The position numbers were made by a program, and so were the translations under genes. A stretch of DNA of 64,000 nucleotides from Macrocystis pyrifera (Eukaryota > Sar > Phaeophyceae > Laminariales > Laminariaceae), in the NCBI GenBank assembly GCA_031763025.1, contig JASSKH010000029.1:8538571-8602570 (forward strand), in the 5' to 3' direction. The first letter of the stretch is position 1; every line of letters begins with the position of its first letter. Shown piece after piece: positions 1,596-63,882 of the stretch. The notes below the pieces were generated by a model. That model saw nothing but the letters and a program-made list of their open reading frames with translations. It had not been told where the DNA came from and did not search any database.

Positions 1596-1701
1596 GTGGA
1601 AAGGCCCGTGAGAAATACGCAGATCGAAACAAGGAAGTTCGTTGGTCGCGGCGCAACCATCACACCGAAATCGTTCAGGATGAACGCCAGGTAGAACGGC
1701 A
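1596..1701 (-). CDS. Copy A exon 6: end of TM6 and TM7
   Basis: 106 bp, start phase 1, end phase 2; acceptor CTGGCAG, donor GTGAGA. It encodes VPFYLAFILNDF..VAPRPTNFL..SICVFLTGLST. The same exon, also 106 bp, is found in copy B (30478-30583) and copy C (57900-58005). The motif FxLxxxxLNxF..x..APRxxNF is shared by all three. This is the last exon of copy A inside the window. Confidence 0.82.
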
Positions 1702-4700
1702 CTGCCAGGCGTTGCAAGTCGGCAGGCGGGATGGGATGGGATGGGATGGGGTGGGATGGGACGGGACGGGATCAGATGGTATAGGGCGATGTGGGATGGT
1801 ATAATATTATATGGGATGGGATGATATGAGATGTAATGGGATGGGATGGGATGGGATGATATGGGATGGAGTGGGATGGGATGGGATGGGATGGGACGGG
1901 ATGAGATGCGATGGGATATAATGGGGCGAGAAATGATGGGATGGGATGGGGCAAGACGGGATGGGACGGGATAGGGTGCCGGTGATCCGCATCAAGTTCG
2001 TTGAAAGAGTGTGCCTCATCTGGCTCGGGACGAAAACATATGGTCTATCGCGCTCTACACAGTTTGACACGGGCGTTCAGTCTTAGGGCTTGAGTCCAAT
2101 CTAAAGATACTTGAATAGGCGGCTCAGTAGAATGGAGTTGACAGTACCCCCGGGTCGACTTGCGGGGCACGAACATGGGGGGGGAAAACCACCGGTTAAG
2201 TGCGTGTCGGCCTCCATAACTGTCTAGCTGGGGAGCAAAGTGCAGGGCAGATTGCAAGGCGGCAGCGTGTCATTCCATTGCTGAAGGCACATTTTCGCCC
2301 TACGCTTGAGGCAACACCTTCGACACACGCTACGGTAGAGGAGCGCCGATTTATTTTTTCTGCGCTTCCTCACTTAAGAAGCTCGATATCTCGCCCAAAA
2401 GCTATTTTCGGGAAAATTAAAAGTGCGCCCCGCCGAACAAATTGAAAGTACAATACCTGGTAGGCATGAAACACATTCGTATTGCAAAACAAGAACGGAA
2501 TTTCCGACGGTTCTGGGTTAAGGAGGAGGTCCGTCGTTCAGAAACAAAGCTTTCAAAAACGTGCTATCCTTGTCGGAGCACGCGTCATTAGCAGCTTTCC
2601 ACTTTTCCACTGCTGTTGTGCGGTATATCGGTCAGTGGAGACACCAGTGCCTTTGATGACAACTCTGCCGTGGTGTGGTGTAGGGCACTGAAGAGGCCCG
2701 TTCCTTATTCGGTGGTTACACCTATAATAATAAGAGAACGGTAGTTTATAGCTGTTGCTGAGAAGTCGCGCAGCTGGAATATAAACAACTATGCCTTGAA
2801 CTTGCGTGTGTAGGTGGGGATTTTTTGGGAGCGTTGCGGCCGAGGCGGGATCATTCAGGCAACTAGAAATGTGTCCCTGTATTGTTTTCGGACACCTTCC
2901 AAAACAAGAAACTCGCAGTCGCTCGTCGAAAGAAAAAGTACTGCACGCGTTCCCACACAAGATCGACACGAAGTGGAACACACTCTACCATCCATGATAT
3001 TTGGGTACTAGCATGTCACTGGCATAAAGGTGAGCGATTTTTTTTTTTTTTATTGACCTGAGCTACTGCTGCTTGCCGCAGGCCTTTTAAATCGTATTGT
3101 GAATGGAGTCATCGATTTTCTCTAGGGGGGAGTACGAAACCACCATTCCGATAAGCCGAACGCCACGCTAGAGCACACCCACGGTGGCAAGCAAGACGTG
3201 TTAACCCCCTATCTTGGGACTCCCTTCATAGCGACCAAACCAATGACTAAACTCCGGAATTTTCAACTCTCTACGAGCACAGAGCGTGAGGGCCCGGCAA
3301 TACGGATATGGTTCATGTCGCGCCCGTGCCGTGCGACTCTCGCTTTCAACCATTGTAGCTCGGACACCAACCATTGCATCATCCACCAATCACGCAGTGG
3401 CCGTTGCTGTCACCGAAACGTTCTTGTCGCCAACTTTCCCCCCTCCCAAGTCCCGTAGAGAGTTGACCCTCGAAGGACGGTTAGAACTGCCATCCGCTTT
3501 TTGGGGACAAACTACCCCAACTCCAGGTAGTTTGTTCCCGAAACGGGACAGCGGTCGGAAAAGGGTTAAGTTCTAGCCCCTCATCCCTCACAGGACTGCA
3601 CCCCCCGTTTCGAGCACGAGTCGCTTGAGACGACTGTAGGGTAACACGTGTTTCTGTGCAATGCGCAACTTTCCGCTGTTAATAGTCGATGAGGGAAGAA
3701 AAGGCTTTTGAAAGTCTTGTCGCGATTCAAAAAGCCAGAGACGGACTTGTGAGTGGTCAGGAGGGGGAGAAGGCCTGCTGTGCGACCTCCGGGTCTGAGT
3801 TATGGTTATGTTTTGGAGGAGGGAGGGAGAACAGAAGGGCGAATATAATAGATGGGATGACAAAATTAACTATTATTATCACGGGGGGCCATACTAAATA
3901 GGACCTACGGTGCATACAAAAACCTATATATTTGGCTATTTTTACTAACAATATTTGATCCTATATACTATGCTCCCCTGCAATAATGAAGCAATAATGA
4001 TGGCTACTGACAAGTACCATCCTTAATAAAAACAACACGAATCAACCCTCTTAGGAGTGCACCCCTGTTTCGGGCACGTGTTACGTAGAATTTCAGTGGT
4101 TTGCCTCCAAAACGACGCTGCAGGTTTCAAAGGGTTAAGCACCCACCAGAGGTGACCAGCCAGGCTATGGCGGCGGAAGAAATCTCCTTGGACATGTTAA
4201 TCCGGTCCTGAACCCTGGAGAGCTCGAGGAAAAGCTTGGAGGAAATTCCTGCACAAATCATGCAAACGGGGCCGTAGAGCCACCAGTCTGCGATGGCGAA
4301 GCAAGTCTTTGTCGGGTTTGGCCTGAAACAACAGCGAACGCAGGACAGCGGGGACACGGTTTGAGGTTGATCGTATCCCACGACAACCGCGGGACAACAA
4401 ATCAGTCAGTGCGACCAGCACACTGCCCAGATCCTTATTTCCATAGCAGTCGGCGCATGCCTGTTCATGGGGTTGGCATTCAACGATTGCCCTGTTCATT
4501 GGCGCAGTCTTGCATCCATCGAAGAAACACGAGACACAGCGAATTACGAAGTCTGGTTTTGAGCACGTTGTCACTCTACCCGCCCTAGGCATCCCTAGTC
4601 ACCTGATTGATGTAGCGGATGTGAAGGAAGCCCGCGTAAATTCGAGAACGTATCCTTGGATCGTCATGTTTGCGCTACAACATGAAAGCCGAAAGCTTAC

Positions 4701-7700
4701 CGTCACCCGAAAGTGTACATATACATTCTTGACTGCTTCTCCCTCCCTATCATTGTCTATCGCTGCCTCTCACTCCCTCCCACTGTTCTTCATTCGCCTC
4801 CCCTCCCTCTCACTGTCTCTCGCTGCTTCTCACTCCCTCCTATTGCCCTTGATTAGCCATCGCTGCCTCTCTCACTGCCTCTCCCTTCCTCTCACTGCCT
4901 CTTACTCCCTCCCACTGCTTGCCACTGCCTCCCACAGCACCCCCCTGCCTCTCTCTTCCTCTCACCGCCTCTCACGGCTTCCCACTGCTTCCCACCACCT
5001 CCCATTGCACCACTGCAACCCCTGCTGCCTGCACAGACAGGTGCCGGGACCCCCCCCCCCCCCCCCCCCACTACATAATGTGGCCGTAAAAATAATCATT
5101 GTTGTGGAGACATCGAACTACGTAACACAACACTAGGCGTACCGAGCTGGGAGGTTTGTCGACACCTTGTGAGATTTGCTATTATATATGCATTGTTCAA
5201 TGTCTTCACAAGGGTACGTTTACGCTCTCACTGTGCAAGCGGGGGGGGGGACCTGCGTATTGCTGCCTAACATTGTTGCTCACTGCTTCTCACCGCCTCT
5301 TACTGGGCCTCGCCGCCTCGCACTCCCCCCCACATTGCCCTTCCCTGTCCCTCGCTTCCTACTGCCTCCTACTACCCTTCTCTTACCTCTTATCGTTGCC
5401 TTTTCCTTCCACTCCATAATGTTTGGAGCGTGTCCTGTTACCTGTGACTGTCACCACCGACTACTGTATATTGTACATAGCAATAAGCGCTATTATACTG
5501 TAAGGTGGGAAGAACAATAACAATAACAATAACAACAACAATAACAAGAACAATAACAAGAACAAGAATAAGAACAATAACAATAACAATAACAAGAACA
5601 AGAACAATAACAATAACATTAACAATAACAAACAAGAACAAGAACAAGAACAAGAACGAGAACAAGAATAAGAACAAGAACAAGAACAAGAACAAGAACA
5701 AGAACAAGAACTATAACAACAGCAAGAACAATAACAATAACAATAGCAAGAACTGACGGCCTTTCACTGCCCTCACCCGTAAATGTTTTGCGAGACGAAC
5801 TGGAGCATGACCGCTATCCCCGTGAACACGATGAAGGCCATGAACAGCATGAGGAAGACGTTGCGCCGCGACAGCACCGTGGAATACTTGGATCGCCACA
5901 CTGTGGAAGCCAATTTCATCGAGAGAAGTGCAGGTCGGGTCTGTTCAACGGACGGCACATCCTAAAACAATACGACGTGGTTACGGTTGCGGTTTGAGTT
6001 GATGGGGGTACTGTAATAAGGGCACTGAACGTACAAATAGCACTAAAAGTACCTTGTTTGGGTTGAGATACAAATATGTATGGCCGACCGAGCTCCTCAA
6101 CCGAATATCGTCCCACCCGTATATACAGCAGTATTTGACAACAATAGTAGTATTTGTGATATACCTACTATTGTACGGTGCGTGCTATGGGGGAGCTAGG
6201 TAACACTTTTTGCCTTGCGAGCCAAATATTTGTGACTGACGGGGCTTCTCAGCAATACTTTCCCCACATCGTTAGGTTTCACAATATTTTTCGGTTTAAA
6301 TCCTTAGGCCATGGGCTTGCCCCTCGGGTTCGGCCTACAGTACGCGTGTTCTTGGAGGCTTTTTCGGGCGACTTACTAATGACTTAGGGCCGCCATTATC
6401 GAAGAGCATTTCCCCCCCATGATTCCCCGTTTGTTTCGCGCATTTTTTTTTTCATCTTCCGTATTTCCCTGTTTTTTTATTCCAAGTATGTAAAATTTAA
6501 CTTTCCTGTTTTTTTTGCTTCTGAAGAATTTCTCAAATTGTCACAGAAAACCTCCGTCCGTATCTTGAATACAATTTTCCAAAATTACCAAAACCTGGAA
6601 CTTCTGGAAAAAAGCTCTCCGACAAGAAAAACCTTTTAATACGGGGGGACCATAGAAAATGGGTCTTACGGTACCCACAAAAACCTACCACTCTGACCCG
6701 AAATATAGGGACCGTTAGCACATAATTATTCAATCCAAAATGTCCTTATATTTTGGGTCAGAGTGGTATATGTTTACCTATATTTACTCTCAATATTTCG
6801 TCTTATTTACTATGGTCCCCCGTAATAGTAAGAGCACAGAACCCCTCAAGCGAAGAAGCTCCTCTGGAAATTCGGTGAAAAGGTGCACCCATGCTGTGGC
6901 ACAGGTCCCACACTAATTCCAAGCAGTTTTGTAGGCTTTTGAGGCGTTCTACGATGGAGTTTCACCCTAAATTTTGTGAGGCTCCTATGTTCCCCCGAGG
7001 GTATAACGCGGAATTCAACGGGGACAGACACATGAATGCGAGTGATGCTTCACGCATTTCGTACGTGTATGCCCAGCAATGTAGAGAGCAAGTTACACAC
7101 AAGTACTCATCCTTCCTTCCTTCAACTGCCCCCCCCGGTCAGGACGCCGTGGTGGCCCAGCAAGTTCCCCCCGCAAAAAAAAAAACGTGATACCGCTATC
7201 GTAGCACGCCTCTTTTGAGACTGTTCTACTACACCATCAGTTGGTGGGCGAGGTTTTACTGGTCCTTTCTGCCGGTTGTACCATAATTCTACCCCTACAG
7301 CTCTTCGGGTGGGAGCTACTACGGGGAACCATAGTAAATAGGACCAAATATTGTTAGTAAAATAGGTAAATGTATAGGTTTTTGTGTGTACCGTAGGTCT
7401 TATTTACTATGGCCCCCCGTAAATAGCCGCACAAGTTTTCGGCGCTACCCTAAGGCAGCGCGCGTATGTTCGGTGGAGGGTATCGTATACGGTGACTGTG
7501 GACGAACTTGTAGGGCCTCATACTTGAGCGGCTAAGGGCCACTGGTGCTAGTGACACCCTCCCTCCTCCGCCTATTATCGTACACTATTGGTTATTCTCG
7601 CGACGCGAGGTGGTTGTCAGGCGCAAAAGGGCGTTGTTGTTTAGGTATTTCCCGGCGGGTACTACCTGCCGATCCACCCTTCGGACGGTAATAGTCTGTC

Positions 7701-10700
7701 GTATCAGCATATGTAATACCAGGTGTGTGTTTGGTGTACACACAGAGTACCCCCATTCTTCAACAGAGAGGGTCTTCCTGGAGGAGGTACTGCAGCGGGC
7801 GAAAAAAAAGCAAGAGCGACCATTTTTTTTCTACGCAAAGTTCAGCCCCGAGCGCCAAAAAAAATGGTGATTTTGCGCTGAGCTGCGGGGACGCCCTCTT
7901 TGCACCGGACTCCTGGAGGTCCCTTGGCATCTCCATCCCGGTCTTGATACAACCACATTTTGTTGCTTCGATAGGTGTGACGTGCGCGTGGCATTTCCGT
8001 TGACCCCACCTAAAAAATTTAGCTATGCGCGACAACGGCTACTACTACTCCAAAAACGATTCCACACTACAGCAGCAATACTCGAAGAACTACGACAATA
8101 TATACATTTTCCCTGGTTCTCCTCTTTTCATATAAAACGGATCAGGAAACTCTCAGGAAAAAAATCAGGACATATATAGGTCCTGTTTTTCTATAAAAAT
8201 CTAAAAAATACACGTCGGCTGTGAGGTCAACCGATCGGTGGATACTCAAATTTGCAAGCTACGTGATAACCGTTCGCGCGTTTTCCATTATTTTCCCCGA
8301 GTTTCTACGTAGAACCAGGGAATTTAGAGTAAAAAAAACGAAGAACGCTCACGGTCGCATTCCTCGCGCAGAAATAAAATTCAGGAAAATCGAGAATTCC
8401 TTGGAGAAAAACATGTTCGATGCGATGTTCCTGAAACTTGCGTGGACCGCTACGAAGAGTAAAGAGGGACACAATACAATGAAACGGTGACGACCGCTCA
8501 GTATGTGCAGGCGAGCGTGCCGGATTTACGCGGATTTACACCTGGAAGTGGCGGCCGGCGGCGGTGTCGACGGCGGCGGCGCTTTCTTCCCGGCCGTGCT
8601 CAAAGCATGTTACCTCGGAGGCGTTCTACGGTAGGGTTGGGCCCTAAATTTTCTGAGGCTCCTCCACATCTCACCCAAAAATTGACTTCAGCAAAAATCA
8701 AAGTGCATCCCGATGAATAATCCCATGGCCCAAGTATACAAAAAAGTCCTTTTTCGAAATAAGACTGGCATTCCGACGATTTTGGGTTAAGGAGCCCCGT
8801 CATTCAGAAAAAATGATTAGCGGAAAAGTGCTACCTCTATCGTAGAACGCGTCCTCGTCTCTCGACCGGTGCGTCCATTCCTGTACGTGAGTCGGTAAAA
8901 ATATGGCACCATGTGGCACCACTAATGCCAGCAGTGGACTTGCAACACTCGCTCAACCGCACTACTGTAAGGCATGTATGTACTGTTTTGTAGTGCAAAG
9001 GTCACCCGACTCCACTGTGATTCCGACTGCAGGTGTTCCCTAAGATCGTGTGGCTCAATCATCGCAGCGCCAAGCCTGTGGACGCTGATAAAAGGATGAC
9101 ATCCCGCATCGTTAGCATGCGGAATATTTCCGGTCTACATGTTAGAGTGCTAGCCATGAACATGGGGGACATCAATCACCACGGCCAGCACAAACATCTA
9201 CCGCATCATCACCAACGTCCATCGAATGTGTACACCTACCGGCTTGTGACGCGGTTGCTACATGTCGAAAGTAGTGTACGGCACACTGTACAGTAGTGCA
9301 CTCGTACCGATGGCTTGCTGTCATTCTACATGTAGTACTGACCTTTGTCCGACACGATAACCACCCGCAGGCCCCTCAGCAAGTAGGGTAGTGGGTAAAA
9401 CGTCATGAAGACGACGTTCGAGTACAGCATGAACTTGCACGGGATGGTGATCCCCTCCTGCCAAGTGATGCCGACGGCGGGTACATAGGGACGACCGTCA
9501 TGTCAGACGATGACAGCAGCATTCGGTCGGGCATGAATACTACTGCTCTAGCAATCCCGCCAGTGCAAAGGGTGTAGCTTGTTCGACGCACTACAGGGGG
9601 TATACCTTGTTCGACCGCAGCCCTGCCGATGCAAAAGGAATAGCTGGTTCGGAGCTCCAAACATACAGCATCGGAGGCGTATGTCGACGACGCACTCTCA
9701 CAGAAAAGCCCCCCCCCCCAACAATTCGGCGAGGCTATTATATCCAATGTTGGGCTTCAGGCGACACTACAGTACTGTGCAGTATCAGCAGGGTACACTG
9801 ATACGGCACGGCCTCCTCGCATTGACTGTAGTCGACTGGTGCCACGAGTAGGGGGGGGGCTAACGTTGGAGTCATTGGTTTTCCAGCCGGCCAGCGCTAC
9901 TCGGACTACAGTACGTTCATCCTTTCTTTGCTGTCTTGAGCGTTTACGCGAGCACAATGTTGTGCGCGCTGCACCAACAATAAATTCCAAGTCCATTTTT
10001 TGGTGGGGTTGCGCGGAGGGCGCATCTCACCCAGCCCGGCAGAGGGTGCGCGTTTGATACATTCGCTAGTTAATTTGTTCTCAGGGATAGCTCCTGTATA
10101 TGCTGGTCGGATTGGGCGAACAACGTTTTTCGCAGTCATGGTATTTCGGGTGAGGTAATAAGCCACCGCCCCCAGAAGGAATTGCTCGGCAAACACACGC
10201 CCGAGTGATCGAAACGCCGTAGGGGAGAAGGGGAAGCCCCCCTCCCGTAAGAGTAGCACCGGTCAGTCAGGAACGTCATCATAGTAGTCGTTAAGGCTGT
10301 GCCGGCGTCGACTGCAGGTGGGAGTCGTCGACATAGTCATTGAGACCTTCGACAGGCCGTACCACATCCTTTCGCGTCTTCGGAGTGAGGCTGAGCGTGT
10401 CATTCGATGCACCGCGATAGTCTATTCAGTCAGCGGCATACCTATATACCAGCACTAGACTGTAGTATTACACGGCATGCAGACGAGGCATTTTATTCAT
10501 CAAGGAGGCATACCACTACCATCTGATTTGAGCCCGTTTCCGACGCTGGCGACACTAGTTCGAGGAAATGATTTCATCAAGTCAGAACGGTACGCCACTA
10601 GTGTTGCAACGACGCTGACCGTCGTGACAACTTCCCCAGACTTGACAGTGGCGCTAAGTTGCAATGCCAAAATATCTGCGCAGACCCATCATCTGCTGCA

Positions 10701-13932: not shown

Positions 13933-14024
13933 CGGGAAACAGGGCCTACGGTACACACAAAACCCTATATATTACCTATTTTTACTATCAATACTTGGTC
14001 CTATTTACTATGCCCCCTCGTAAT
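13933..14024. mobile_element. MITE-1 copy, one arm truncated
   Basis: The interior GGCCTACGGTACACACAAAA and the right arm CTATTTACTATGCCCCCTCG are present; the left arm is reduced to GGGAAACA. Confidence 0.7.
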
Positions 14025-16049: not shown

Positions 16050-16900
16050 AGTGGCAGCAGTAAATGTACACGCCTTCCTGCATGCCGTGTTCCCGCACCT
16101 TTAGTTGGAAGCCCCGCTTGCGCGTGCTGAAATCCGTGCTGCCCTGTCCTCCCTCGAAACACCAACGTGAGTACTCTGGACGGAAATTGTTACCTCTCCA
16201 ACGGGCACCCGCGTGTTGAGATTGATACTCAAAAATGCGGCTTAAACACGACGGTTTGAAGACGGGTGCGCAAGGTTCGGCACCCGCTAGTGTGACGTTG
16301 CCAGGCGGCACACCAATGTTGATGTGTGTCCCAAAATTTACGTGCCAAGGGCCACCAGCGCGGCGGCTAGCGGCACTTCTTGGAGGACCTGTCTTGGTTT
16401 CGTGCAGAAAGCGACGAGTACTGACCTCGTACTGACCTCCCCCCCCTCCACTCCCCTTCCCCTCCCCCTCCCTCACGCGCACGGCGGACAACGAAACGAG
16501 TGAAGGCGACGGAAAGAGAGCGCGTTTCTTATTTACTTCCGGTTCCCCCGGCGGCTCCACCCTCGAATTCCTCCGGTGCCGTAGGGTGCGGATATGCTCG
16601 GCGTGACGCTATGGTGACCCAACCCCAGCGAGGCTTGCCAGCGGTGGTGCCACCCCAGACCGCTTTCGCGACACGACAAGGTGTTGGTTACATTTATTTG
16701 CACCGCCTGTACATACCGCTTGGGTCTGGAAGGGTGAAAAAAAAAGGTCCCGCGACACCAGGGACCCTCATGCGGTCGACTAGTCCGCGGAATGGCGCGT
16801 TGTGGCGGTTTCCCGATTATTCGCGGCCGAGACTGTTGTCGGGTCGAGCTGCTCAGCTGCGTGCGGTATCATGGCTTCGCTTGCAGCTATCAGCGCGGCT
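16050..16900 (-). other. Upstream block of copy A shared with copy B
   Basis: About 2.7-3.6 kb upstream of the copy A ATG. It is alignable with 44210-44990, which lies 3.3-4.1 kb upstream of copy B. Shared pieces include ATTTACTTCCGGTTCC, GGCGGCTCC and TCATGCGGTCGA. In copy A the minus strand is open for 172 codons (16560-16042, no ATG). In copy B the same stretch has stops and a shifted frame. It may be a promoter, a 5'UTR exon or leftover duplicated DNA. Confidence 0.55.
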
Positions 16901-20362: not shown

Positions 20363-40861
<20,499 letters not shown>

Positions 40862-41735: not shown

Positions 41736-41775
41736 GCATGACGGGCATATTAGATAAATCACGATCGACTACAGT

Positions 41776-47375: not shown

Positions 47376-47489
47376 TGATGTTGACCTTCGATCGCTCCAT
47401 GTTCATAACCGCTTGAGCCATGGTCATCTGACCCTCCGTTTCGAAGTTCGTGGGCATGTCCAGTTTGCCCTCGATCGTCATAGACGCCT
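47317..47489 (-). CDS. Copy C exon 11: C-terminal tail and stop
   Basis: 173 bp including the stop at 47319-47317; acceptor GTTTCACAG, start phase 1. It encodes ASMTIEGKLDMPTNFETEGQ, MTMAQAVMNMERSKVNIMRR and FSTLPVFNLSSIAENK. The last ~16 codons and the stop lie within the first unit of a degenerate minisatellite that continues to about 46790. Confidence 0.7.
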
Positions 47490-50400: not shown

Positions 50401-53400
50401 AGCTGTATTCTACTAAGAACCGCTTTAGAGGTAGATTTTCTCGCATATGGATGACGGCGTTATTGAATAAAATTAATTGCGGGTGTGGCCACTTCCAGGG
50501 ACAGCAATGGGTTTACTATGTAACTGCCTCGTGGGTGCCTCACCATATATGCACTACGTGATACGATCATCCCCCCCCTTGTGCGGAGTAAAGGTTCTCC
50601 CGGCACAAATATGATCTAACTCGACCGCCAGCCGAGGTAACCGCCAAAACTAAATAAAAAAATAAGAAACGGTACCCTGGCTGTCTAGCTCGCGCAGTGA
50701 GAGGCGTGTTTTACATCGTCGTCGCCAACCGACGCCAGGGGGGCGGGGCGGGTGATAGGCATACATTTTCATTAAGTACGGGTAACTGAGGCCTCCGTTC
50801 CTTGCCCACGGTCGTCGTGGTCACAACCGAACCGCGACTAAGTCTCTAACAACTCACCTGGAGAACTTTATTTCGCATCGCCGATTCAATATTAACCTCT
50901 AGCTCTGCTCCCGCCACAATGTACGTATCAACAATTTCACGGAAATAGACGTAGATCTCCCTGTCCGAACCCTCGTCCGCCCGCCGGACGTATCGGTCCA
51001 CCTAAAGGAACGTGTTGTCGACGTCGCGCATGCATGGGGATAAAAAAACACAAACGAAGGCGGTCCGTTTTAGCAGCAACCTCGCCGGAGTCAGGCCGGT
51101 GCGGTGTAGAAGGGGTACCTGTTGTATGTGCTGTATGTGCTGTATGTGCGTTTGTTAAGATACCGGTAGGGGCGCATGCGTCCTACGGTAGAAGTAGGGT
51201 ACACCCATATTTTCTGAGATTTTCTCGCGTGAGGGGCTTTGTACGTGCCTTGAAACAAAAACTGACTTTTCACAAAATTTGCAAAAACAACGACCAGAAA
51301 TGCTTGCCACATCTTCGATATTTTGTCTGTTTGGCTTTAGGGCAGGGTTAGAGTTGGTTGCGTATGTCTCGTAGTGTGTACCATTTTCTCGAGTAAGTGG
51401 TAAGTTTTCTCGAGCAAGTGGTAAGCAAACCCATGGCCTACAACATGCTTGATACGAATACATTTTGTTTTCATTTTCCATCTTACAATTTGCAACGCTT
51501 ACTTCCATCCACATCATCCTTATATGAAGTGGCAACTATGATCCGATAGCATCAAAACACGAAAGGATTTGAAAATCCCACCTGAAACATGCATGATCAA
51601 AAAATGCTCCTGATAATGCAGTCCCCCACAAGACTGACTCTACCGATGCCTAGCGGACTTTTGACCAATCACACTAATGCTTTTGAAGGAGGGACAGTAG
51701 CTGTGATTCGAATAATATTGAAAGAGACAGTAGCTGTGATTCGAATAATATTGAAAGAGGCAGTAGGTTTGATCGAATAATATTGAAAGAGAGAGTAGGT
51801 CTGGGACGAAAAATACTGAAACAGCCCAATGTGGAGCGGTCCGACGAGACTGGGTATGAAGTATGTCGAGGAGCGCCGTCGGCCAGCAACAAAAAATAAC
51901 CACGATTTGCTACCCCTACCCCAGGTATCATAGCCGGCGTGTAGGGATACTGTACCTTTTTTTGGGCCAAAAGTATTTTTTCCGACGACCGGAGAGGGGT
52001 CCTAAACGGAAGATCTGTAACCTAATACCTGTCGAAACACCGCTTGTTTTACCATGGTACACAGGTTGTCCGCTTTACCTAAAATGGGCACTTTTTGGTT
52101 TCCTCTCGTGGTGACGTTCTGGGTGACTTACAGTAGTAACGAGTTACCAATAGCACACAGTTCGCCTGCCGCCAGCAGCACGTGTCTCCAAGGTGGGCAC
52201 CGGGTGACGCGAAACAAACAAAAAATTAGGTGTTTCAAGCATTCGCAAACACCTGAGCCACGACACATCCAAACAAAAGAGATGTCGACACCATCACACA
52301 CGAGCAAAGAATGCCACGCAAGACACGGTTCGACGGTGCCATACTATCACCGCCCGAAGCGTGACATCGAAGAAGTCTGGCGCGCGCAGCCCGACCAACA
52401 CTTATGGGCGCTACTAACAGTCCTACGGCAGCAACGCAAACACCACTCTGCGCGTAAATACAGTTGCCGCTTCGTATTCATATTAAACTATGAACAGACT
52501 TTATATTTTCGCCTAGAAGGATACCAGGTGTACTACTGTACTAAAAAACAGAGGTATATCCAGCAGCACACACATCGATATCTTCTCACTTGAGGAGGTG
52601 GACCGGGGTCAGAAAATATGGAGCCAAAACGTGGCACCTCTACCGCAGCTTTCGCTCACAAACGGATATAATCAGGTGGGCACAAAGAGAAAATACGACG
52701 AGCCTTTAGTTTGGTTAGATAGTTACGTGGAGCACCACGTTACTTGCCGCCTTTAAGAAGTCGTAGGACTCGGAGCACAAGTAGTCCTGCACGTGCTTTT
52801 CGAACGCCTCGTCCAAAATTGGGCATTCCATCAGCACCTGGAAAAACGGGAGAGACGGAGGGCCACACGGGTAGGCGGTTCATACTATCGTATTCGTATG
52901 CGCGTGTACAGTACATTCGTGCCCACAGTCCCGCCCCGTGCTAGCACTGCTTTAGCGATTTGATACACACACGCTGAGATTTGCACGACAGAGTTAATGA
53001 CATACGCACGTACCATATTTAATAAATATCATGCTTACGAGAGAGAGGGAGTGTTTTCATGCGACGGACTCTTTCCCTGACCATGCTTACGAGGTAGAGG
53101 GAGTGCTTTCGTGCGACGGACTCTTTCCCTGGCCCTTTCTAGGACTGCAGTCCCGTTTGGGGGACAAACCACCCAATTTCTAACTAGCTTGTCCTCAAAG
53201 CGGGAACTGCAGTAGTGAGGGGGGGGGGTGGTCTTGGCCTCCCCGCGTTCCTTGATCAAACGCCGCAGACACCATAAGGAAACCTGTACAGCAGTGAGCC
53301 CCACGAGTGGCGGACAGCCTGAAGCTAACACTGCCAATAGGGAACAGGAATACAAGCCAAAACGAGGCTAAGAAACACGTTGAGTTACTGTAGCGAAACT

Positions 53401-56400
53401 TTACGAGGCGTTCTACGATAGAGGCACTAATATGAGCACTTGCTTTTTCGGTAAAATATTTCCGACCAGCCGGCCGTGCTCCTTAACCCAATTTCGTTGG
53501 AATAAAATTTACTTTTTATATTTTTCTCGTGACGCACCTACTCTTTGTAGGCATCGGGTTGCCCTTTTAGCTGTTGTCACAATCAGCGATTGGGCGAGGT
53601 ATATAGATCACTCCAAAGGAGGAGGCGTCAGGGAATATAGATGCTACAACGGTTGGAGGCGTCACAGCAGTAATTTTCACCGGCGAAGGACACGATAGGC
53701 GTTGCAATTAGGGTTTGCAATCGGGGGCCTCAAATAGAGAGTGCACTTAAGAGTTGCAATTCGGTGTTGCAACTATAATTTGCTTTCAGGGGTTGCAACT
53801 CGTGTTAACACTTTTTTGGTCCACCGTTTTGTGACTGACAACGGGGGGGGAGTCTTCAACTGTGAAACCTCCACCCACTATCGCCGGCATATCGTTTATG
53901 TTTTCACTGTTTAGCTCTAAACGAAAAAGCCGAAGCCATGGGGTCGTTCATCACCTCACACGCTTTCAGTTTTGTTGAGAGCTTTTTATCGGTGGGGTAT
54001 CGAGCTCCAAAAAGTGGAGACCCTCAGAATGTGTTAGCTGCAGCCTTATCTTAGTGTGGCTTCATGAGAATAACATGCCACGACCGTGATGTATTCCTCG
54101 TCCAAGCCATACGCATGAAATGCTTTCTTGCCTTTGAGCTGTTCCATCTTTCCCTCCACGCCGTAGTGTACTTATCGTCGATGACCACCGTAGGCTTCTT
54201 CTTTTTCCAGCAAACCCCGCACCCCTTGTGCCGGCGGGGCTCAATGAAGAACCTGCAACGGAAAAAAAGTCAAAAATCGGGGTGACAATATGACACGGTG
54301 TGCGTTTGATATCACGAGAATTGCGATAGTGTAACCTCGTCTTACTGTGTGTGCCTGCCGTAAACGGTTTAGCACCGTTACGCACCGGATTTCACGCTCA
54401 GCAATGGGTACCCCCCCAACAAAGGAGTCCTTGATGAGGCAAAAGCATAAGTAACGCAGGCTACATCGGCTTGTCTCGAGTTTAGACTCAGCATGGTGTG
54501 CAGGCCATTTCTCCCGCTCTAAGGCCGAAACCGGCGTTATCCCGAGCGATAACTCCCGCGTTAAGGCCGGTTTCGGCCTTATCCCGGGTTGAGGCACATG
54601 TGGCCGTACATCGGGATCCGGCAAAAGTGGTAAGAATGCAGGTTTAAGTGCCTTGTCCCATACCCTGCCTTATTGTGGGGTGCCCACTGTACTTCGAAAG
54701 GCATCGTGGTCCTAGTCGTCTTCCCCCCAGGTTCTGTATACGTTCGTCAATACTTTCCTACCGTACAAGACTGCACGTGCTTGCACGGCTCCCGCTGGGG
54801 TGAGAACATGCCCCTCGGGAGCTACGTCGCGGAAAGGGGGGGGGCGGGGGGGGGGGGGGGTACCGTAGCACAAACTTTTTCCCTGGAAGACGGGTGCCCT
54901 CTAAAGAGAAGCCACCCAACAACGTTTGCAACCCCTTTTCCTGCTCCTTTGAAATGCACCTTTGCAACACCTCCGCAACACCTTTGCACATTCATGCAGC
55001 AACTTTTCCAAGTCCTTTGAAACACGTTGGCAACACCTTTTTCCTGCTCCTTTGAAGCGCATTTCCAACACCTGTGCATCACATTTGGGGCCTATTTACC
55101 GGGCACCTTTTTCCAACTCCTTTGAAACCCCTTTGCAACTCGGTCTCGCCACCTTTGCAACACCTTTGCGATATCTCATGTATGCATGCCTGCCTTGAAA
55201 AGATATCAATCTGTACCTAAATATAATGACCATTTTTATACCAATATTAAGTAAACAAAAAATCAATATTTAGGGGCAGAACGATGTACAGCAGTCTCTC
55301 TATGTAGCCCATGGGATCAACTGTTGCTACCAACGTTCAGAAAAGTTAGAATAAACATCACCCGACACACAGTTGACGCGTTCTACGATAGAGGTGTAGC
55401 ACATTTCCGCCAACATGTTTTCTGAACGACGGGGTCCCTTAACCCAAAATCGTCGGAATACAAATCTTGCTCCGAAAAATGACGTTGTTGCATACTTGGG
55501 CCATGGGATCGTTTATCGGGATGCAATTTGATTTTTGCTGAAGTCAGTTTTCGGGGTAGGTAAGAAGCTCCTTAAGGTCAAGTGAGGAGCCTCAGAAAGT
55601 TTTAGGATCAAACTCTATCGTAGAACACCTCAGTCCTAGAGACCTCCTTTCGGCACCTAGCGAACAACTAGTATAATAGTAGCTTTTAACTCATACACCA
55701 AGCTTGCCGAAATGAGTGACAACGAAACCTTCGATCTCATAGCTTCGATGTAGAGTGTTGTTTGTCCTATACATCAGATCCTGATACACTTTGCAGGGGT
55801 ATATCTCCCCAGCTGCATTGGTTGATGCAGAGATTCGCGAGGATGCCACGTCAACGGTACACGTTTCACGCCTCCGACAGATCGATCATCATGACCACTA
55901 TCATCTAGATCACCTATTGCGGGGGACCATAGTAAATAGGACCAAATATTGTTAGTAAAAATAGGTAAATATATATATATTTATGTATACCATAGGTCCT
56001 ATTAACTATGGACCCCCGTAATAATGCTTCACCCGGCATCGTGAGAGGTGGTGCAAGAAATGTAAGGCACATATCTACTGTAACTTACTTCTTTGAAACA
56101 CGTGCCATCATACAACAAGCAACTCACCCGGCAACGAGGAGCTAAATCACACAACAAGATCGGTAGTATATCTGCCCTCGAAATATCTACAAGGTACATC
56201 AGGTACATCATCAAGTGGGAGGGGATCCATGATCTCTCCGAGGCATGAAAAATAATACCGTGTACCGTCGCATGACCCTTTCGCCTCTCTGGCGACGTCT
56301 GGCGGGGGCACAGCGCGAAATAAAAAAACGAAAATCCTCCCAGCAGACGTTTTTGCATTGGTGACATGACTCGACGCATGGTACGGTGGCAGTGGGCTTC

Positions 56401-59400
56401 AGAGGTGAAAATGACGTGTATATGTACCGACCATCACAGCAATGGCCGCTGCGTGATTGTGGGGTGATACACAACAACTTTAGCGTCCGATCTACAATGC
56501 AAAGGGTCGTGCTGCACAGACGCGACATGATCATGTATACGAGCTGATGGGCGCGCACCGCTGCTCGTAGACGGTTGGCAACACCCGAAGCTAGCAACCA
56601 TTGTTTTGGTCGCTATCGAGCGGTCGCGAAGGGGGTGATAATTTTTTTAAGGCTCCTCCTCGCCGGCTCAATATACGTCAAATAAAAAAAAAAAAACTTC
56701 CTTTTCAGGACGAACGAAAGTGCAGCCCGATCAAATTCTACGGCCTACAGTGCAGGAACAATGCCTTCCATGAAGGGGTGGGGTGGTAGTTTCTGAGCTC
56801 CTCACCCTTAAGGGGTTGTGCCTTATTTTCTGAGCTTCTCGCCCTTCGAGGGGTGGTGCCTTATTTGGAGGCGTTCTACGATAGAGGTTCACCCTGAAAT
56901 CTCTGAGGCTCCTCACATTAGGAGCTCCATACCTCACCCCAAAACTGACTTCAGCTAAAATCAAATTGCATCCTTCGAATAATCCCATGGCCCAAGTATA
57001 CGAAAACGTCATTTTTTTTAACAAGTTTGGCATTGCGACGATTTCGGGTTACAGAGCCCCTTCATTCAGGAAACATTTTTGTGGAAATGTAAGTGCTACC
57101 TCTATCGCAGAATGCGTCTTTGTTGAGCTCTTCACATGAAGGAGGAGCCTGGTAATCTCACCCTAAACAAGCATGACTTCGAAGAAGCTTGCTCGTGCAA
57201 CTATGCCAAGATTTCGTATGCGCCACGTAGTCCTGAAACAAACGTACCACTCTGTCCGGAATTTTACTAATACGGGGGACCATAGTAAATAGGACCAAAT
57301 ATTGTGAGTAAAAATAGGTGAATACGTAGGTTTTTGTCTATACCGTAGGTTCTATTCACTATGGACCCCCGTAATAAGATATTAAGAAGCATACTTTAAT
57401 ACTATTTTTTCATACAAAATTTCGTTGTATCTAGAGGCAAAGTGTTTGCTCGCCCAAGGAGCTCAACCGGTTAGAAAAACATTGAGCCCAAAAGGTGTAC
57501 CCCTACCTGTCATATATTAAGAAACAGGACACCTAGTACAGGCTGGATTTCTTATTATGAAGGCAACGGATGCGTTCTGCACTAACCCCAGCATACAAGA
57601 CTTCCTGATTTTCTTATTTTCTTTGTAACTCCCAGCCGGACTTTTGGTATCGACCGTTTTCTCACTGGATGTCCTGTGCTGCAGAGTTAATGGCGCATGG
57701 CGAATATCACACAACGAAATTAAAAGGTACAAAAGTGGAATCCTGACGATGTTGAGTACACTCGTTTTCTCAGTCGAGCAGGTTTGTCGGTCCCAAGTTA
57801 TTTGTACGGTTGACATTTCTGCTACGTAATCCTACCCTCACACGTTTGACTACTGCGGTGTTGACTACGAAGCGTTTTACTTGTTGTGTGTGTACTTACG
57901 AAGAGACGTCCGTGAGGAAGGTGCAAAAGCCCAGCACAAAGTTCGTTTGCCGCGGCGCCTCGATCACCTCGAAAGCATTCAGAACAATTAACGAAAAATG
58001 CGGAACTGCGGCGCGGTGCGATGCGATGCCGTGACGTGCGGGGTGGATGGGTGGGTGGATGGGTGGGTGGTTTAGAGAGTGGGTCGATGGGGGTGTCGGA
58101 GGAGGAGTGGCGACGCAAGCAAGGGTGTACCGTTGTATTACCTATGAATCGGTGTTTTGAGCTGGTTTGGCCGTCGGGTAATCCAAAGTGTGTGTGCCAT
58201 AGATCGGTAGAGAGAGGGTAGCTCTTGCGGTAAGAACTCGCGCTGGGAGCAGGAAAATATGACTCATACAGGAGGTTTCCTAACTTATAGTATTTCCGGC
58301 TGCACTCGTCTGGAAAGGGGGCCCGGCTCCTTAAGGCGCCTGCGAAAAGAGAGAAAAGATCGCTTCAACAAGACGCTTCTTGATATATACGCATATATAC
58401 CTACAGTATACATGCAGCTTTATAGATAATGATGCAGCACACAGGCAACGTGGTTGACAGGTAACGCGGCCATTGAGAAATGCCCTGGCCGATTAGGCTT
58501 GCTTGAAGTGGTCTAAATCGCGAAGCGACCTGCTGCATGGGTATAGTGGGCGCTGTACGCGAAAACTTCCCTCATTCCCATCATTAAAATATGCAGCGCG
58601 ATAAGTAGAGATAGCAGTTATGCGTGACTTACCCTCAAAAATTGATATGGTATGTTGCTTTAAAAAACACACACATATATATATATGTATATCTGATGTA
58701 TATACAGTACGTAAAACGAGCGTGCCATGGAGACAATCGAGTCCACTATTGTGATACGAGTATTCTAGTCCCTTTAAACACACAAGTTTTAAACTCAGGG
58801 ATGGCTGCAGAATGGAAACGCGACACAAAGAAAACGCACGGCCGTCACACGCTTGCTCCGTCGTCAGCACCACAGGACGACTGGGACATCTCATGGCAAA
58901 AATGCAAACACACACTCACTAGCTGTGCAGAACCACACGAGGGAAGCGCTGACGATCTCCTTAGACATGTTTATTCTGTCCTGTACCCGGGACAGCTCCA
59001 AGAACAGCTTATAGCACACCGCCGCGAAGCCAAACGACGTCGGGCCAAAAAACCACCAATCACCAAGAAAAAAACACGCCTCAGTAGGCTCACTCCTGCA
59101 CCAAGCCGATCGACAGCATTCGGGGCATAGGGGGTTAGGGGTGATGAACGAGGGAGTGCGAGACAACAACGGACGCGTGTGGGGGCGGCGGGTCGAGGGG
59201 GGTCGAAACAGCAGCACGCACGGGGGGCATAGAGAAGACACAAACAGAAAGTAGTGTCCAGCGTTTGTAACATATGTGTGGTCCTGTGTGATTGGGACAA
59301 GGAGAGACGGCATTCGGCAGTGCTCGATATGATTGACAGGAGGAGATACAGCGCTCGCCAGGACTCAAGAGGGTGGGCTCGGGGAAATATGAAACAGCAA

Positions 59401-62400: not shown

Positions 62401-63882
62401 TCAGGCCATACATGCGATACGTGGGCCACTACAGTATGTCGTGCAGACCTTTGCCTCTCGGGTTAAATGTCGGATACGTAGGTCGCTACAGTAGTAGTAC
62501 GTCATGCAGGCTGGGGTGTCTATCTAAGGCTACAGGCACCATCCCTCCATCAATCCACTCACCCATAAACTTGCGGAGACACCTTCTGCAGCACGGCGCA
62601 AACGCCCACCACACCCCAGAAAGCTACCGTCACAATGATAATAGTATTCCTCTGCGAAAGGAACAGAACGTACTTCTGTCTATAAACTGCAAGGCATTCC
62701 GAGGCAGGCAGGGGGACGAGGGGGCGGTGCAAAGGCAAGGCGACAGGTAGGTGGTGCAAGGCAACAGCGACGGGGGAACGAGGGGTTTGTTGTGCGCTGG
62801 AAACATTGCGTTTGTGAGCGACGTGTGGTCGGTGGAGTCTGGTGTGAGGATCGCTGCTGCGTGAGGAAGCTTCGAGAGCAGATTAGCACTTGTCTCTTCC
62901 TCGAAGTCGTGTGTGCGTCCTATGTATGGCTTGTGTTTGGGGGTCGTGATAAACATCACGCACGGAACGGTACAAGCTGCCCAATGATTGCAAACGACGT
63001 TTGGGCATTGTTATCACGGGCCAGCGGCGACTGCGAGCACTGATGAAGTAACGAATCAGCAATGGATTAACGAATCGATGCGGTAACTACTCAATGCCTG
63101 AATTAATTAAAATTCATAGATTTTTTCTTCTTTCATGCATTGATTAATTATTTGACTACTACTGTAATAAATGAGATAGGTAATTAGGCCTTTGGTGAAA
63201 TAATCTAATCAACCGATAAATCAATAAATTGATCGATAAATTATTGTATGCATGCGTTTCAGAACTGCAGTCCCGTTTTGGGGACACACCAGTCTATTTC
63301 CAAGTAGTTTGTCCCCAAAACGGGACTGACTGCCGTCCTGAAAGGGTTAAGAAATGTCTAGTGTATTAATGAACTAGTGGGTAAACCAGGTTACTGAAAC
63401 AAGGAATTACAGAGTTAATGGATTCGTGAATAAAAAAAGAAAATCCAGGTTGGTCATAATAGGGGCACCACCAATGAAAAGCGCGAACCCTTCTGGAGGG
63501 ATATTAACCCGTGCGTTGACCCCTTAACCCTTTTATGGCAAAACGCAGTCCCGTTTTGGGGACGAAGTACTTGGATTTTGACTTTTTGTCTCCAAAACAG
63601 GACTGCAGTGCCGAAACGGGTATATTGACCCTTTTTAACACGAATCTAACTTCAATCCCCGAGTGTTTAGTCCGCACAGCGGGAGTTTTACGAATATTTC
63701 GGCAATATTCTCGTATCGCCACGCAGATAGATAGATCCCGTGCAAGACCTGTGCCGTATAAACCCACCTCTGTCGGAGACGATGACGATTCTCATCCCTC
63801 TCAATAGATACGGGAGCGCGTAGAACGCAACCGCGACCGCGTTCAAGTAGAGGATGATCACACACGGAAGCAACTTGCCCTC
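47317..63882 (-). CDS. Copy C: 7TM-RGS protein gene, exons 3-11 (5' part off the right edge)
   Basis: Predicted exons on the minus strand: 63882-63768, 62686-62563, 59095-58920, 58005-57900, 54252-54132, 52837-52748, 51001-50858, 49036-48865, 47489-47317. They cover TM3 to the stop; exons 1-2 (TM1, TM2) should lie beyond position 64000. Phases are the same as in copies A and B. The protein is more diverged (TM5 exon starts SEPTEACFFLGDWWFFG against PNPTKECFAIADWWFYG in B), but the G-alpha-facing RGS residues are kept: YLCSESYDF and YIVAGAELEVNIESAMR. Two introns use GC donors instead of GT (after exons 7 and 8). The linker exon is 6 bp shorter and the third RGS exon 6 bp longer than in B. The tail is longer than in B and its end lies in a minisatellite. 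No stop or frameshift is seen. Confidence 0.8.
48041..48285. mobile_element. MITE-4 family copy
   Basis: CGCGTACTACGATAGGGGTAG at one end, CCCCTACCTTGCTAGTAGTAG at the other. GGCCACGGGATTGTTCACCA and CAAAATCAGTTTTTGAGCTCC lie inside. Confidence 0.7.
48533..48592 (+). repeat. GGGATCCC-type palindromic cluster
   Basis: Overlapping GGGATCCCGCGGGAT, CCCCGGGAACCCGTGGGG and CCCGTGGGATCCC units, in copy C intron 10. Confidence 0.75.
48865..49036 (-). CDS. Copy C exon 10: C-terminal third of the RGS domain
   Basis: 172 bp, start phase 0, end phase 1; acceptor AAATTAG, donor GTAAGG. It encodes IGEWSLFEVAGIEQKRDIFN and PSEVEIRKMLDENLLKSFLI, ending SKVFLNACKRVQEEENA. The six extra bases relative to copy B keep the frame. 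Confidence 0.86.
49600..50110. repeat. Fragments of dispersed repeat R7
   Basis: Part of R7 recurs at 49708-49890 (ATGACCATAGATTATCGCAT, GTTTTCACCAACCAGGCAGG, GGCGAGTCGCATGAAGG). Only its end recurs at about 49925-50000 and 50040-50105, each next to a G-run. Confidence 0.6.
50240..50745 (+). repeat. Long dispersed repeat R7, copy 2
   Basis: Inverted relative to 395-903. It runs from CATAGACCCTCGCATCCCTAC through GGCGAGTCACATGAAGGATG and GTGGCCACTTCCAGGGACAG to GCCAACCGACGCCAGG. It fills much of copy C intron 9. Confidence 0.7.
50858..51001 (-). CDS. Copy C exon 9: central RGS domain
   Basis: 144 bp, phases 0 and 0; acceptor CCTTTAG, donor GTGAGT. It encodes VDRYVRRADEGSDREIYVYF and REIVDTYIVAGAELEVNIES, ending AMRNKVLQ. 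IVAGAE(L/M)E.N is nearly the same as the corresponding stretch of Arabidopsis RGS1. Confidence 0.92.
51693..51822 (+). repeat. 33-bp tandem repeat, about four units
   Basis: GACAGTAGCTGTGATTCGAA, TAATATTGAAAGA occurs twice almost exactly (51693, 51726), followed by two diverged units (51759 and about 51791). Copy C intron 8. Confidence 0.92.
52748..52837 (-). CDS. Copy C exon 8: start of the RGS domain, GC donor
   Basis: 90 bp, phases 0 and 0; acceptor TTCCAG. The donor is GC (AAGGCG followed by GCAAGT), aligned base for base with the GT donor of copy B. It encodes VLMECPILDEAFEKHVQDYL followed by CSESYDFLKA. Confidence 0.87.
53030..53133 (+). repeat. 52-bp tandem duplication
   Basis: CATGCTTACGAGAGAGAGGG... 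and CATGCTTACGAGGTAGAGGG... start at 53030 and 53082. Both end CGGACTCTTTCCCTG, followed by (A/G)C. Confidence 0.93.
53133..53220. mobile_element. MITE-3 family palindrome
   Basis: GACTGCAGTCCCGTTTGGGG and GTCCTCAAAGCGGGAACTGC pair. It abuts the 52-bp tandem duplication. Confidence 0.75.
53405..53700. mobile_element. MITE-4 family copy, right end unclear
   Basis: GAGGCGTTCTACGATAGAGG at the left, then GCTCCTTAACCCAATTTCGTTGG. The right end is worn. A further fragment with AGCCATGGGGTCGTTCATCA follows near 53830-54060. Confidence 0.6.
54132..54252 (-). CDS. Copy C exon 7: linker between TM7 and RGS, GC donor
   Basis: 121 bp, start phase 2, end phase 0; acceptor GTTGCAG. The donor is again GC (CTCAAAG followed by GCAAGA). 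It encodes FFIEPRRHKGCGVCWKKKKP followed by TVVIDDKYTTAWRERWNSSK. It is two codons shorter than in copy B. Confidence 0.8.
54515..54585. repeat. Small fold-back sequence
   Basis: TAAGGCCGAAACCGGC and GCCGGTTTCGGCCTTA are perfect inverted arms about 30 bp apart, in copy C intron 6. Confidence 0.85.
54913..55180 (+). repeat. Degenerate GCAACACCTTT minisatellite
   Basis: Many imperfect units of (G)CAACACCTTT, TTCCTGCTCCTTTGAA. It is preceded by G-runs at 54837-54860. Confidence 0.8.
55375..55631. mobile_element. MITE-4 family copy, intact ends
   Basis: 257 bp: GACGCGTTCTACGATAGAGG to CTATCGTAGAACACCTC. The interior TTGGGCCATGGGATCGTTTA is the reverse complement of the block in 8618-8853 and 56868-57118. 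Confidence 0.82.
55917..56021. mobile_element. MITE-1 family copy
   Basis: GCGGGGGACCATAGTAAATA pairs with TTAACTATGGACCCCCGTA; the interior is ACCAAATATTGTTAGTAAAA. Confidence 0.9.
56385..56640 (+). repeat. Dispersed repeat R6, copy 2
   Basis: Counterpart of 12215-12470. AATGGCCGCTGCGTGATTG, GGGGTGATACACAAC and ACCATTGTTTTGGTCGCTATC are the clearest shared pieces. Confidence 0.65.
56868..57118. mobile_element. MITE-4 family copy, intact ends
   Basis: 251 bp: GAGGCGTTCTACGATAGAGG to CCTCTATCGCAGAATGCGTC. The interior is colinear with 8618-8853. Confidence 0.82.
57272..57373. mobile_element. MITE-1 family copy
   Basis: ACGGGGGACCATAGTAAATA pairs with TATTCACTATGGACCCCCGT, only 154 bp from a MITE-4. 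Confidence 0.9.
57900..58005 (-). CDS. Copy C exon 6: end of TM6 and TM7
   Basis: 106 bp, start phase 1, end phase 2; acceptor GCCGCAG, donor GTAAGT. It encodes IPHFSLIVLNAFEVIEAPRQ followed by TNFVLGFCTFLTDVSS. Confidence 0.87.
58024..58080 (+). repeat. G-rich GGGTGGAT array in copy C intron 5
   Basis: GGATGGGTGGGTGGATGGGT and similar, starting about 20 bp upstream of copy C exon 6 in the gene's direction. It holds the same intron position as the GGGAT array of copy A. Confidence 0.85.
58920..59095 (-). CDS. Copy C exon 5: TM5 and start of TM6
   Basis: 176 bp, start phase 2, end phase 1; acceptor GGTGCAG, donor GTGAGT. It encodes SEPTEACFFLGDWWFFGPTS, a hydrophobic stretch, KLFLELSRVQDRINMSKEI and VSASLVWFCTA. 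The outer half has changed while the intracellular loop SRVQDRINMSKEI equals copy A. Confidence 0.9.
60861..61200 (+). repeat. Tandem ~160-bp units with MITE-2 ends
   Basis: TGACACCACTCTGTTTCTAA (60861), TGATACCGCTCGGTCCCAAA (61020) and TGATACCACTCTGTCCCAAA (61187) begin successive units. The units share CCATTTCGATCAA/CCGTTTCGATCAA, GGTCGG(T/C)TGTAGAGCCCC and CCAGTCAGAAACTA. Confidence 0.85.
61225..61616. mobile_element. MITE-4 copy split by a MITE-1
   Basis: MITE-4 starts at GAGGCGTGCTACGATAGGGA and reads to AAAAATCGTCGGAATCACGCG. A worn MITE-1 (about 61358-61460) follows. MITE-4 then resumes with CACCGGGTTGCACTTTCTGG, CGAAATCAGTTTTTGG and an end near ACCGTGGCACGTGTG. Confidence 0.65.
61925..62530 (+). 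repeat. Degenerate GTGGTTGTCTCGAAGG array
   Basis: About ten imperfect units of 60-70 bp, each with a version of GTGGTTGTCTC.AAGG and often CGCAT/GCGATACGTGGGTCACTAC. It fills the end of copy C intron 4 and stops ~30 bp short of exon 4. Confidence 0.75.
62563..62686 (-). CDS. Copy C exon 4: TM4
   Basis: 124 bp, start phase 1, end phase 2; the intron side of the acceptor ends in AG, donor GTGAGT. It encodes VYRQKYVLFLSQRNTIIIVT followed by VAFWGVVGVCAVLQKVSPQVYG. It is the most diverged of the three TM4 exons but keeps length, phase and the RN before the helix. Confidence 0.83.
63256..63351. mobile_element. MITE-3 family palindrome, well preserved
   Basis: CTGCAGTCCCGTTTTGGGGA and GTCCCCAAAACGGGACTG are the arms; it ends AAAGGGTTAA. 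It lies 171 bp from the next copy. Confidence 0.88.
63523..63620. mobile_element. MITE-3 family palindrome
   Basis: TTAACCCTTTTATGGCAAAA, CGCAGTCCCGTTTTGGGGAC and GTCTCCAAAACAGGACTGCA form the hairpin. It is in copy C intron 3. Confidence 0.82.
63768..63882 (-). CDS. Copy C exon 3: TM3
   Basis: 115 bp, start phase 0, end phase 1; acceptor TTTGCAG, donor GTGGGT. It encodes EGKLLPCVIILYLNAVAVAF followed by YALPYLLRGMRIVIVSDR. It is the first copy C exon inside the window. Confidence 0.88.

Follow-up and report, generated by a model that had tools for sequence, protein, structure and literature searches.

Three tandem genes predicted to encode seven-transmembrane RGS proteins in the brown alga Macrocystis pyrifera

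A stretch of 64,000 nucleotides from the brown alga Macrocystis pyrifera (contig JASSKH010000029.1, here C210; the whole stretch is referred to as the window) carries on its minus strand three head-to-tail genes, A, B and C, each modelled with eleven exons. As read from the sequence, these are three intact-looking paralogous genes for proteins of about 445–475 residues in which seven predicted transmembrane (7TM) helices are followed by an RGS domain, and the cluster arose in the brown alga through two rounds of tandem duplication. By analogy with Arabidopsis RGS1 (AtRGS1), we consider it probable (roughly 0.75) that the three kelp proteins are receptor-type GTPase-activating proteins (GAPs) that work as AtRGS1 does. 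The initial annotation of the window had proposed a locally amplified family in a non-plant eukaryote, with which three tandem copies in a brown alga agree. The window begins at assembly position 8538571; copies A and C were completed from flanking genome sequence, and the genome searched was the M. pyrifera assembly of 537,376,219 bases in 223 contigs. The genes occupy the following positions.

Copy A gene: C210:8528768-8551872 (assembly numbering), minus strand, crosses the left window edge
Copy B gene: C210:8558933-8579431, minus strand, entire gene inside the window
Copy C gene: C210:8585887-8608599, minus strand, crosses the right window edge

Inside the window the cluster spans positions 1596–63882, from exon 6 of copy A (1596–1701) through exon 3 of copy C (63768–63882), with exons 1 and 2 present twice (A and B), exons 3–6 three times and exons 7–11 twice (B and C). 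Eleven exon types recurring two or three times on the minus strand had been described initially at a spacing of ~25–30 kb, and the exact exons bear this out, with copies ~25–29 kb apart (27,377 and 27,396 for exon 5, 25,234 for exon 10 and 28,882 for exon 6). Comparison of the open reading frames (ORFs) of the window with one another gave minus-strand matches down to E 1e-32, and a search of the whole 537-Mb genome with the B protein returned 32 exon matches, 28 of which lie in the A/B/C cluster. Together, these two results exclude a chance origin of the exon repeats.

The exon phases agree throughout A, B and C, and every frame is open. Seven exons (2–6, 8 and 9) do not differ in length between the copies; the others vary, in nucleotides for A/B/C, as 95/95/98 (exon 1), 127/127/121 (exon 7), 169/166/172 (exon 10) and 149/122/173 (exon 11). 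Intron sizes range from 0.9 to 5.2 kb across the three copies. The completed genes contain 30 introns, 28 of the GT-AG type and two, both in copy C, of the GC-AG type; these GC donors lie at 54126–54131 (after exon 7) and 52742–52747 (after exon 8), positions at which GT is found in A and B. The exon 7 donor of copy B (AGG/GTGAGA) is in phase 0 and fits exon 8, so that no linker exon is required between them. In A, B and C an acceptor-like CAG precedes the start codon by 3 or 4 bases; because the CAG-to-ATG distance is out of phase between the copies, we infer that the 5' untranslated region contains an intron, rather than that the protein is longer. Exons 1–10 are firm, bound by conservation among the copies, and in copy B they join to 417 residues, to which a tentative exon 11 adds 40, giving 457. 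All exons are listed below in window numbering.

Copy B exon 1: 40767..40861, minus strand, ATG, donor GT, phase 2; short N-terminus and TM1; acceptor-like CAG 4 nt upstream of the ATG
Copy B exon 2: 38641..38749, minus strand, AG..GT, 109 nt as in A and C; first intracellular loop and TM2
Copy B exon 3: 35545..35659, minus strand, TM3; 115 nt in A, B and C
Copy B exon 4: 32647..32770, minus strand, second intracellular loop and TM4; 124 nt in A, B and C
Copy B exon 5: 31524..31699, minus strand, TM5 and third intracellular loop (VQDxINMSKEI); 176 nt in A, B and C
Copy B exon 6: 30478..30583, minus strand, TM6 and most of TM7; 106 nt in A, B and C
Copy B exon 7: 28998..29124, minus strand, end of TM7 and basic cytoplasmic linker; donor GT, phase 0
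Copy B exon 8: 26488..26577, minus strand, RGS part 1
Copy B exon 9: 24684..24827, minus strand, RGS part 2
Copy B exon 10: 23637..23802, minus strand, RGS part 3
Copy B exon 11, tentative: 20363..20484, minus strand, 40-residue C-terminal tail and stop; 28 residues if the acceptor is 20448
Copy A exon 1: 13208..13302, minus strand
Copy A exon 2: 11311..11419, minus strand
Copy A exon 3: 9343..9457, minus strand
Copy A exon 4: 5777..5900, minus strand
Copy A exon 5: 4147..4322, minus strand
Copy A exon 6: 1596..1701, minus strand
Copy A exons 7-11: -286 to -9802 (left of the window), minus strand, from flanking sequence
Copy C exon 1: 69932-70029 (right of the window), minus strand, from flanking sequence
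Copy C exon 2: 67321-67429 (right of the window), minus strand, from flanking sequence
Copy C exon 3: 63768..63882, minus strand
Copy C exon 4: 62563..62686, minus strand
Copy C exon 5: 58920..59095, minus strand
Copy C exon 6: 57900..58005, minus strand
Copy C exon 7: 54132..54252, minus strand, GC donor
Copy C exon 8: 52748..52837, minus strand, RGS part 1; GC donor
Copy C exon 9: 50858..51001, minus strand, RGS part 2
Copy C exon 10: 48865..49036, minus strand, RGS part 3
Copy C exon 11: 47317..47489, minus strand, 57-residue tail and stop

Such a locus might also be a cluster of pseudogenes, or of wrong models, in which relic exons are never joined in one transcript. The exon joins are modelled from DNA alone, copy C requires its two GC donors, the introns are large and exon 11 of copy B has a poor acceptor, all of which would suit this explanation; the zero stops or frameshifts in 33 modelled exons and the constrained divergence of the copies make it very improbable.

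The reliability of the C-terminal tails differs between the copies. Coding scores for exon 11 are 24.8 in A, 26.0 in C and 2.0 in B. The coding-plus-acceptor score is 30.0 in C, compared with 11.0 for the next candidate, and 25.7 in A, compared with 14.3 for the best non-overlapping rival. Exon 11 of copy B was not among the top 15 terminal-exon candidates ranked by coding plus acceptor score and was picked by peptide similarity to exon 11 of copy C, in which it ranked first among 409 candidate terminal exons. This similarity scores 39–43, the next unrelated frame reaching 32; a score of 39 was reached by 4 of 2000 shuffles. The acceptor score of −4.1 is lower than any of the 27 acceptor scores of the other exons (−2.6 to 12.9); an alternative acceptor 36 bases on, at 20448, scores −1.0 with a coding score of 5.9 and would leave a 28-residue tail. 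The 457-residue copy B protein of the initial annotation is thus upheld for exons 1–10, whose phases join, and is tentative for exon 11, whose weakness means that the protein could be 445 residues long.

Hydropathy analysis revealed seven peaks in each of the A, B and C proteins and none beyond residue 246. The RGS domain (PF00615) was found at 38.5 bits in A, 33.2 in B and 36.3 in C, above the curated cut-off of 23.9, with the alignments covering profile positions 6–116, 12–116 and 5–116 of 117, respectively. In all three copies, 7TM part and RGS domain follow one another in one modelled protein, the joins being read from phases and open frames. The predicted 7TM and C-terminal RGS layout, including an RGS match for joined exons 8–10, therefore survived scrutiny. 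The predicted intracellular loops are basic; the positive-inside rule, applied as a charge count only, is compatible with a cytosolic RGS domain, and the parts predicted to lie outside are tiny (an N-terminus of ~5 residues and loops of ~6, 17 and 10 residues).

A drifted RGS domain could have lost GAP function and serve as a scaffold or effector. The Pfam scores of 33–38 bits are modest, and several canonical contact residues presumably differ from those of animal RGS4. Against this, no large region of the proteins is better conserved than the RGS part, which keeps the glutamate of its LCSESYDFL motif; this residue aligns to Glu320 of AtRGS1, for which a provisional sequence was used in all comparisons. 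We take Glu320 to be important for GAP activity; the literature searched contained no mention of this role. Loss of GAP function seems quite unlikely to us.

Divergence among the copies was estimated by the Nei-Gojobori method over residues 1–415. The nonsynonymous and synonymous values (dN/dS) are 0.18/0.82 for A–B, 0.40/1.75 for B–C and 0.40/2.46 for A–C, the larger dS values being near saturation. The low dN relative to dS indicates that all three copies are under constraint, and the values identify A and B as the younger pair, C having diverged first. Identities for A–B, B–C and A–C are 80, 62 and 70% in the inner loops, 77, 60 and 63% in the RGS domain, 76, 52 and 52% in the outer loops and 65, 43 and 44% in the membrane segments; the tails are least alike, at 11, 36 and 25%. 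This pattern fits shared G-alpha contacts combined with differing inputs or differing removal from the membrane, but a plain anchor would be expected to show it as well. The short outer loops are also kept better than the membrane segments, so that the pattern argues neither for nor against differences in ligand.

These comparisons bear on two other roles for the 7TM part. It could be a mere membrane anchor that places the RGS domain beside G-alpha without a ligand, as might be expected from the tiny outside parts and from membrane segments more divergent than loops and RGS domain. In Aspergillus oryzae, moreover, an RGS part without the 7TM part restored the phenotype, and the proteins are said to act through RGS (PMC10794492; this and all other sources are cited from excerpts). 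Many residues, however, are invariant among the copies across helices and loops (in the part inside the window), which exceeds the needs of an anchor, and dN/dS of the 7TM region is ~0.24 (A–B) and ~0.22 (B–C); we give this role low odds. Alternatively, the proteins could be true G-protein-coupled receptors (GPCRs) that carry their own off switch, the 7TM part acting as a G-alpha exchange factor and the RGS domain sharpening or ending the signal. The intracellular loops are the best-kept group within the 7TM region in all comparisons, A and C share all 14 residues of intracellular loop 3, related 7TM exons elsewhere in the genome lack RGS in the stretches examined, as in a receptor family, and a GRK-like gene has been reported from Ectocarpus (PMC3307776). 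However, the proteins have no similarity to a known GPCR family in Pfam, conserved inner loops would equally be expected if the RGS domain or G-alpha docks there, and in plants G-alpha self-activates without an exchange factor while the 7TM-RGS protein promotes hydrolysis (PMC3386157). An exchange-factor role is, in our view, unlikely.

The genome was also searched for G-alpha, as the initial annotation had suggested, and G-alpha (PF00503) is present, with 21 exon matches at at least six loci (C131, C189, C197, C202, C204 and C210); six is a lower bound because only the best-scoring candidates were scored. With at least six loci, the idea that the three proteins act on one G-alpha is unsupported. 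DVGGQR and the switch-I glycine are present at all six loci, and the P-loop was seen at five, that of C197 lying outside the sequence examined. Switch I reads T-T-G at two loci, T-S-G at three and S-S-G at one. We take the RGS-coupling threonine to be the residue directly before the switch-I glycine, its position being set by the motif, and T-T-G to be the form found in RGS-sensitive G-alphas. C131 and C202 have threonine at this position; in C189, C197, C204 and C210 it is serine. In plants, the switch-I threonine decides RGS coupling (PMC3386157).

Outside the cluster, the B protein matched a single RGS exon, on C208 (E 2.4e-4), and, weakly, three 7TM exons on C211 and C223 (E 0.02, 0.08 and 0.97). 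The RGS part of C alone gave ten matches, nine in the cluster and one on C208. A profile of the three copies firmed up the 7TM matches to E 3.5e-7, 3.7e-10 and 1.2e-7 in a small set of frames, and a second exon was found at each locus. No RGS was detected in the 14.9 kb (C211) and 9.8 kb (each C223 locus) examined around these exons, though one may lie farther off, and no 7TM match in the 9.9 kb surrounding the C208 frame. The dispersed 7TM relatives, of which LPYCLRACRLVVLYNTQYRLKYARYVKLRN is an example, exceed no Pfam family cut-off and possibly represent an undescribed 7TM family. In further searches, tblastn scans of viral contig and genome contig collections gave no relative at E <= 1e-3, the Dicty_CAR receptor profile (PF05462) matched nowhere, its controls being silent too, and the class C GPCR profile (PF00003) gave a single match, on C221, under the cut-off.

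Dispersed 7TM relative: C211:13938459-13942027
Dispersed 7TM relative: C223:7196465-7198020
Dispersed 7TM relative: C223:7275435-7279932
RGS domain in a single 194-residue open frame: C208:367981-368562, 38.1 bits

As receptor-type GAPs, the kelp proteins would sit in the membrane with a very short N-terminus outside and the RGS domain in the cytosol, where it would speed GTP hydrolysis by one or more kelp G-alphas and keep the pathway off. Holding the off state at the membrane is proposed by analogy with AtRGS1, the GAP domains of Naegleria and the Aspergillus proteins, and a mechanism of the AtRGS1 type would need a self-activating G-alpha. The likeliest partners would be the two G-alphas with a T-T-G switch I (C131 and C202). 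The brake might be relieved by a signal perceived within the helix bundle, or by phosphorylation of the tail followed by endocytosis; the candidate tails comprise 40–57 residues and differ between the copies. Since there is no ectodomain for a large ligand, a ligand, if there is one, would have to act within the helix bundle or via a partner. The copies may differ in the input sensed or in their removal from the membrane, with a common surface facing G-alpha.

Several observations weigh against this interpretation. The 7TM part matched no Pfam 7TM family at E <= 0.1 in the A, B or C protein, and a sequence search against solved structure chains found no significant relative of it. The RGS part likewise had no significant relative among solved chains, an axin chain, which we presume to be itself an RGS-type domain, appearing at E 1.6; the best match over all these searches, at E 0.16, was an unrelated enzyme. 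The RGS scores are modest, and it is the layout by itself that suggests a sensing role for the 7TM part. Aligned with the 7TM part of AtRGS1, the kelp 7TM part scored lower than the average of its shuffles (Z −0.9, 60 shuffles), and hhalign gave 0.2 compared with 1.85 ± 1.98 for 40 shuffles; both are tests that very old homology could escape. Four of the six G-alphas carry serine, not threonine, before the switch-I glycine. Finally, exon 11 is weaker than exons 1–10, most of all in B, and the copy A tail resembles neither the B tail nor the C tail (scores of 18 and 24, which are noise).

Outside the exons and interspersed repeats there is almost no alignment between the copies, except for three short collinear blocks common to the upstream regions of A and B, none of which was matched upstream of C. 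The best-matching pair is a candidate promoter or non-coding first exon.

Conserved block upstream of A: 16753..16851, no strand assigned, 3.5 kb upstream of the copy A ATG; 79% identical over 100 nt to 44845-44939, E 3.6e-15
Matching block upstream of B: 44845..44939, no strand assigned, 4.0 kb upstream of the copy B ATG

Among the repeats, an interspersed element of ~110 bp (GGGGGACCATAGTAAATAGGACC...) occurs in both orientations at 7316–7422, 55914–56024, 57267–57377, 27435–27547 and other places, and is frequent also in the flank right of the window. A fold-back element of ~100 bp (TTTGGGGACAAACCA .. TGGTTTGTCCCCAAA), perhaps a miniature inverted-repeat transposable element, is found at 29354–29454, 37019–37117, 53133–53205 and 63258–63352, two of its copies being 93% alike. 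Positions 396–890 and 50230–50737 form an inverted copy of ~500 bp with 81% identity, with partial copies at 35717–35849 and 49704–49869, and the first intron of copy B contains an 83-bp tandem duplication (38985–39152, 98% identical). A tRNA search and an Rfam scan of the window found no tRNA and no Rfam family above its gathering score.

With AtRGS1, which is 459 residues long (PMC5575782), and other plant 7TM-RGS proteins, the kelp proteins share an N-terminal 7TM part, a linker, an RGS domain and a short C-terminal tail. Their RGS domain can be aligned with that of AtRGS1, a similarity sufficient for homology of this part as judged with the provisional sequence, whereas the kelp 7TM part has no detectable similarity, and the kelp has three tandem copies and at least six G-alpha loci; membership in the AtRGS1 family by descent is not claimed, the RGS part alone being similar. 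The initial likening of the layout to that of Arabidopsis RGS1 is correct as stated, with the qualification that the layout is not confined to plants: it is documented in vascular plants, Naegleria, Trichomonas and fungi. Naegleria and fungal proteins are likened to those of the kelp here by description, not by sequence. Naegleria fowleri has 28 7TM RGS proteins, some with RGS domains proven to be GAPs, and resembles the kelp in having a 7TM part before a C-terminal RGS domain, an expanded protist family and several G-alphas per cell; the outside N-termini of several members, however, carry EGF-like repeats, lectin domains or GPCR proteolytic site motifs (PMC9283941), unlike the ~5 residues in the kelp. 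Fungal 7TM-RGS proteins (PMC10794492; MoRgs7 and MoRgs8, PMC6405168) likewise combine both parts in one protein and regulate G-alpha negatively, as is proposed for the kelp proteins, and MoRgs7 is endocytosed together with G-alpha, although MoRgs7 and MoRgs8 belong to another lineage and their 7TM part is described as C-terminal (PMC6405168). Among stramenopiles, the GPCR-bigrams of oomycetes are also fusions of a 7TM part with a C-terminal signalling domain, but this domain is a phospholipid kinase, phosphatase, cyclase or similar, and the excerpts name no GPCR-RGS type in stramenopiles (PMC6033456, PMC5784254). An RGS domain is reported in one of four diatoms (PMC3727952). The excerpts of the stramenopile signalling literature (PMC5784254, PMC6033456, PMC3727952) mention no brown-algal 7TM-RGS protein, and none was reported among the matches listed from a search of open-licence literature, which is weak evidence of absence.

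The kelp proteins, as predicted, add a brown-algal member to the already known 7TM-RGS layout. A possible, still doubtful history is that a stramenopile 7TM family of its own, with RGS here and none detected at the C211 locus and the two C223 loci, was fused to an RGS domain in an event separate from those in plants, fungi and Naegleria and was then amplified in tandem, helices and tails diverging and the G-alpha-facing surface remaining shared. Were this so, the AtRGS1-type brake would have evolved convergently in a second lineage of complex multicellular photosynthesisers. The 7TM-RGS proteins of plants serve as the model for control of G proteins at the off step; the brown-algal tandem set, together with at least six G-alphas, two of them T-T-G, offers a way to test whether G proteins are controlled like this in another multicellular lineage, and which G-alpha is the partner of each paralogue.

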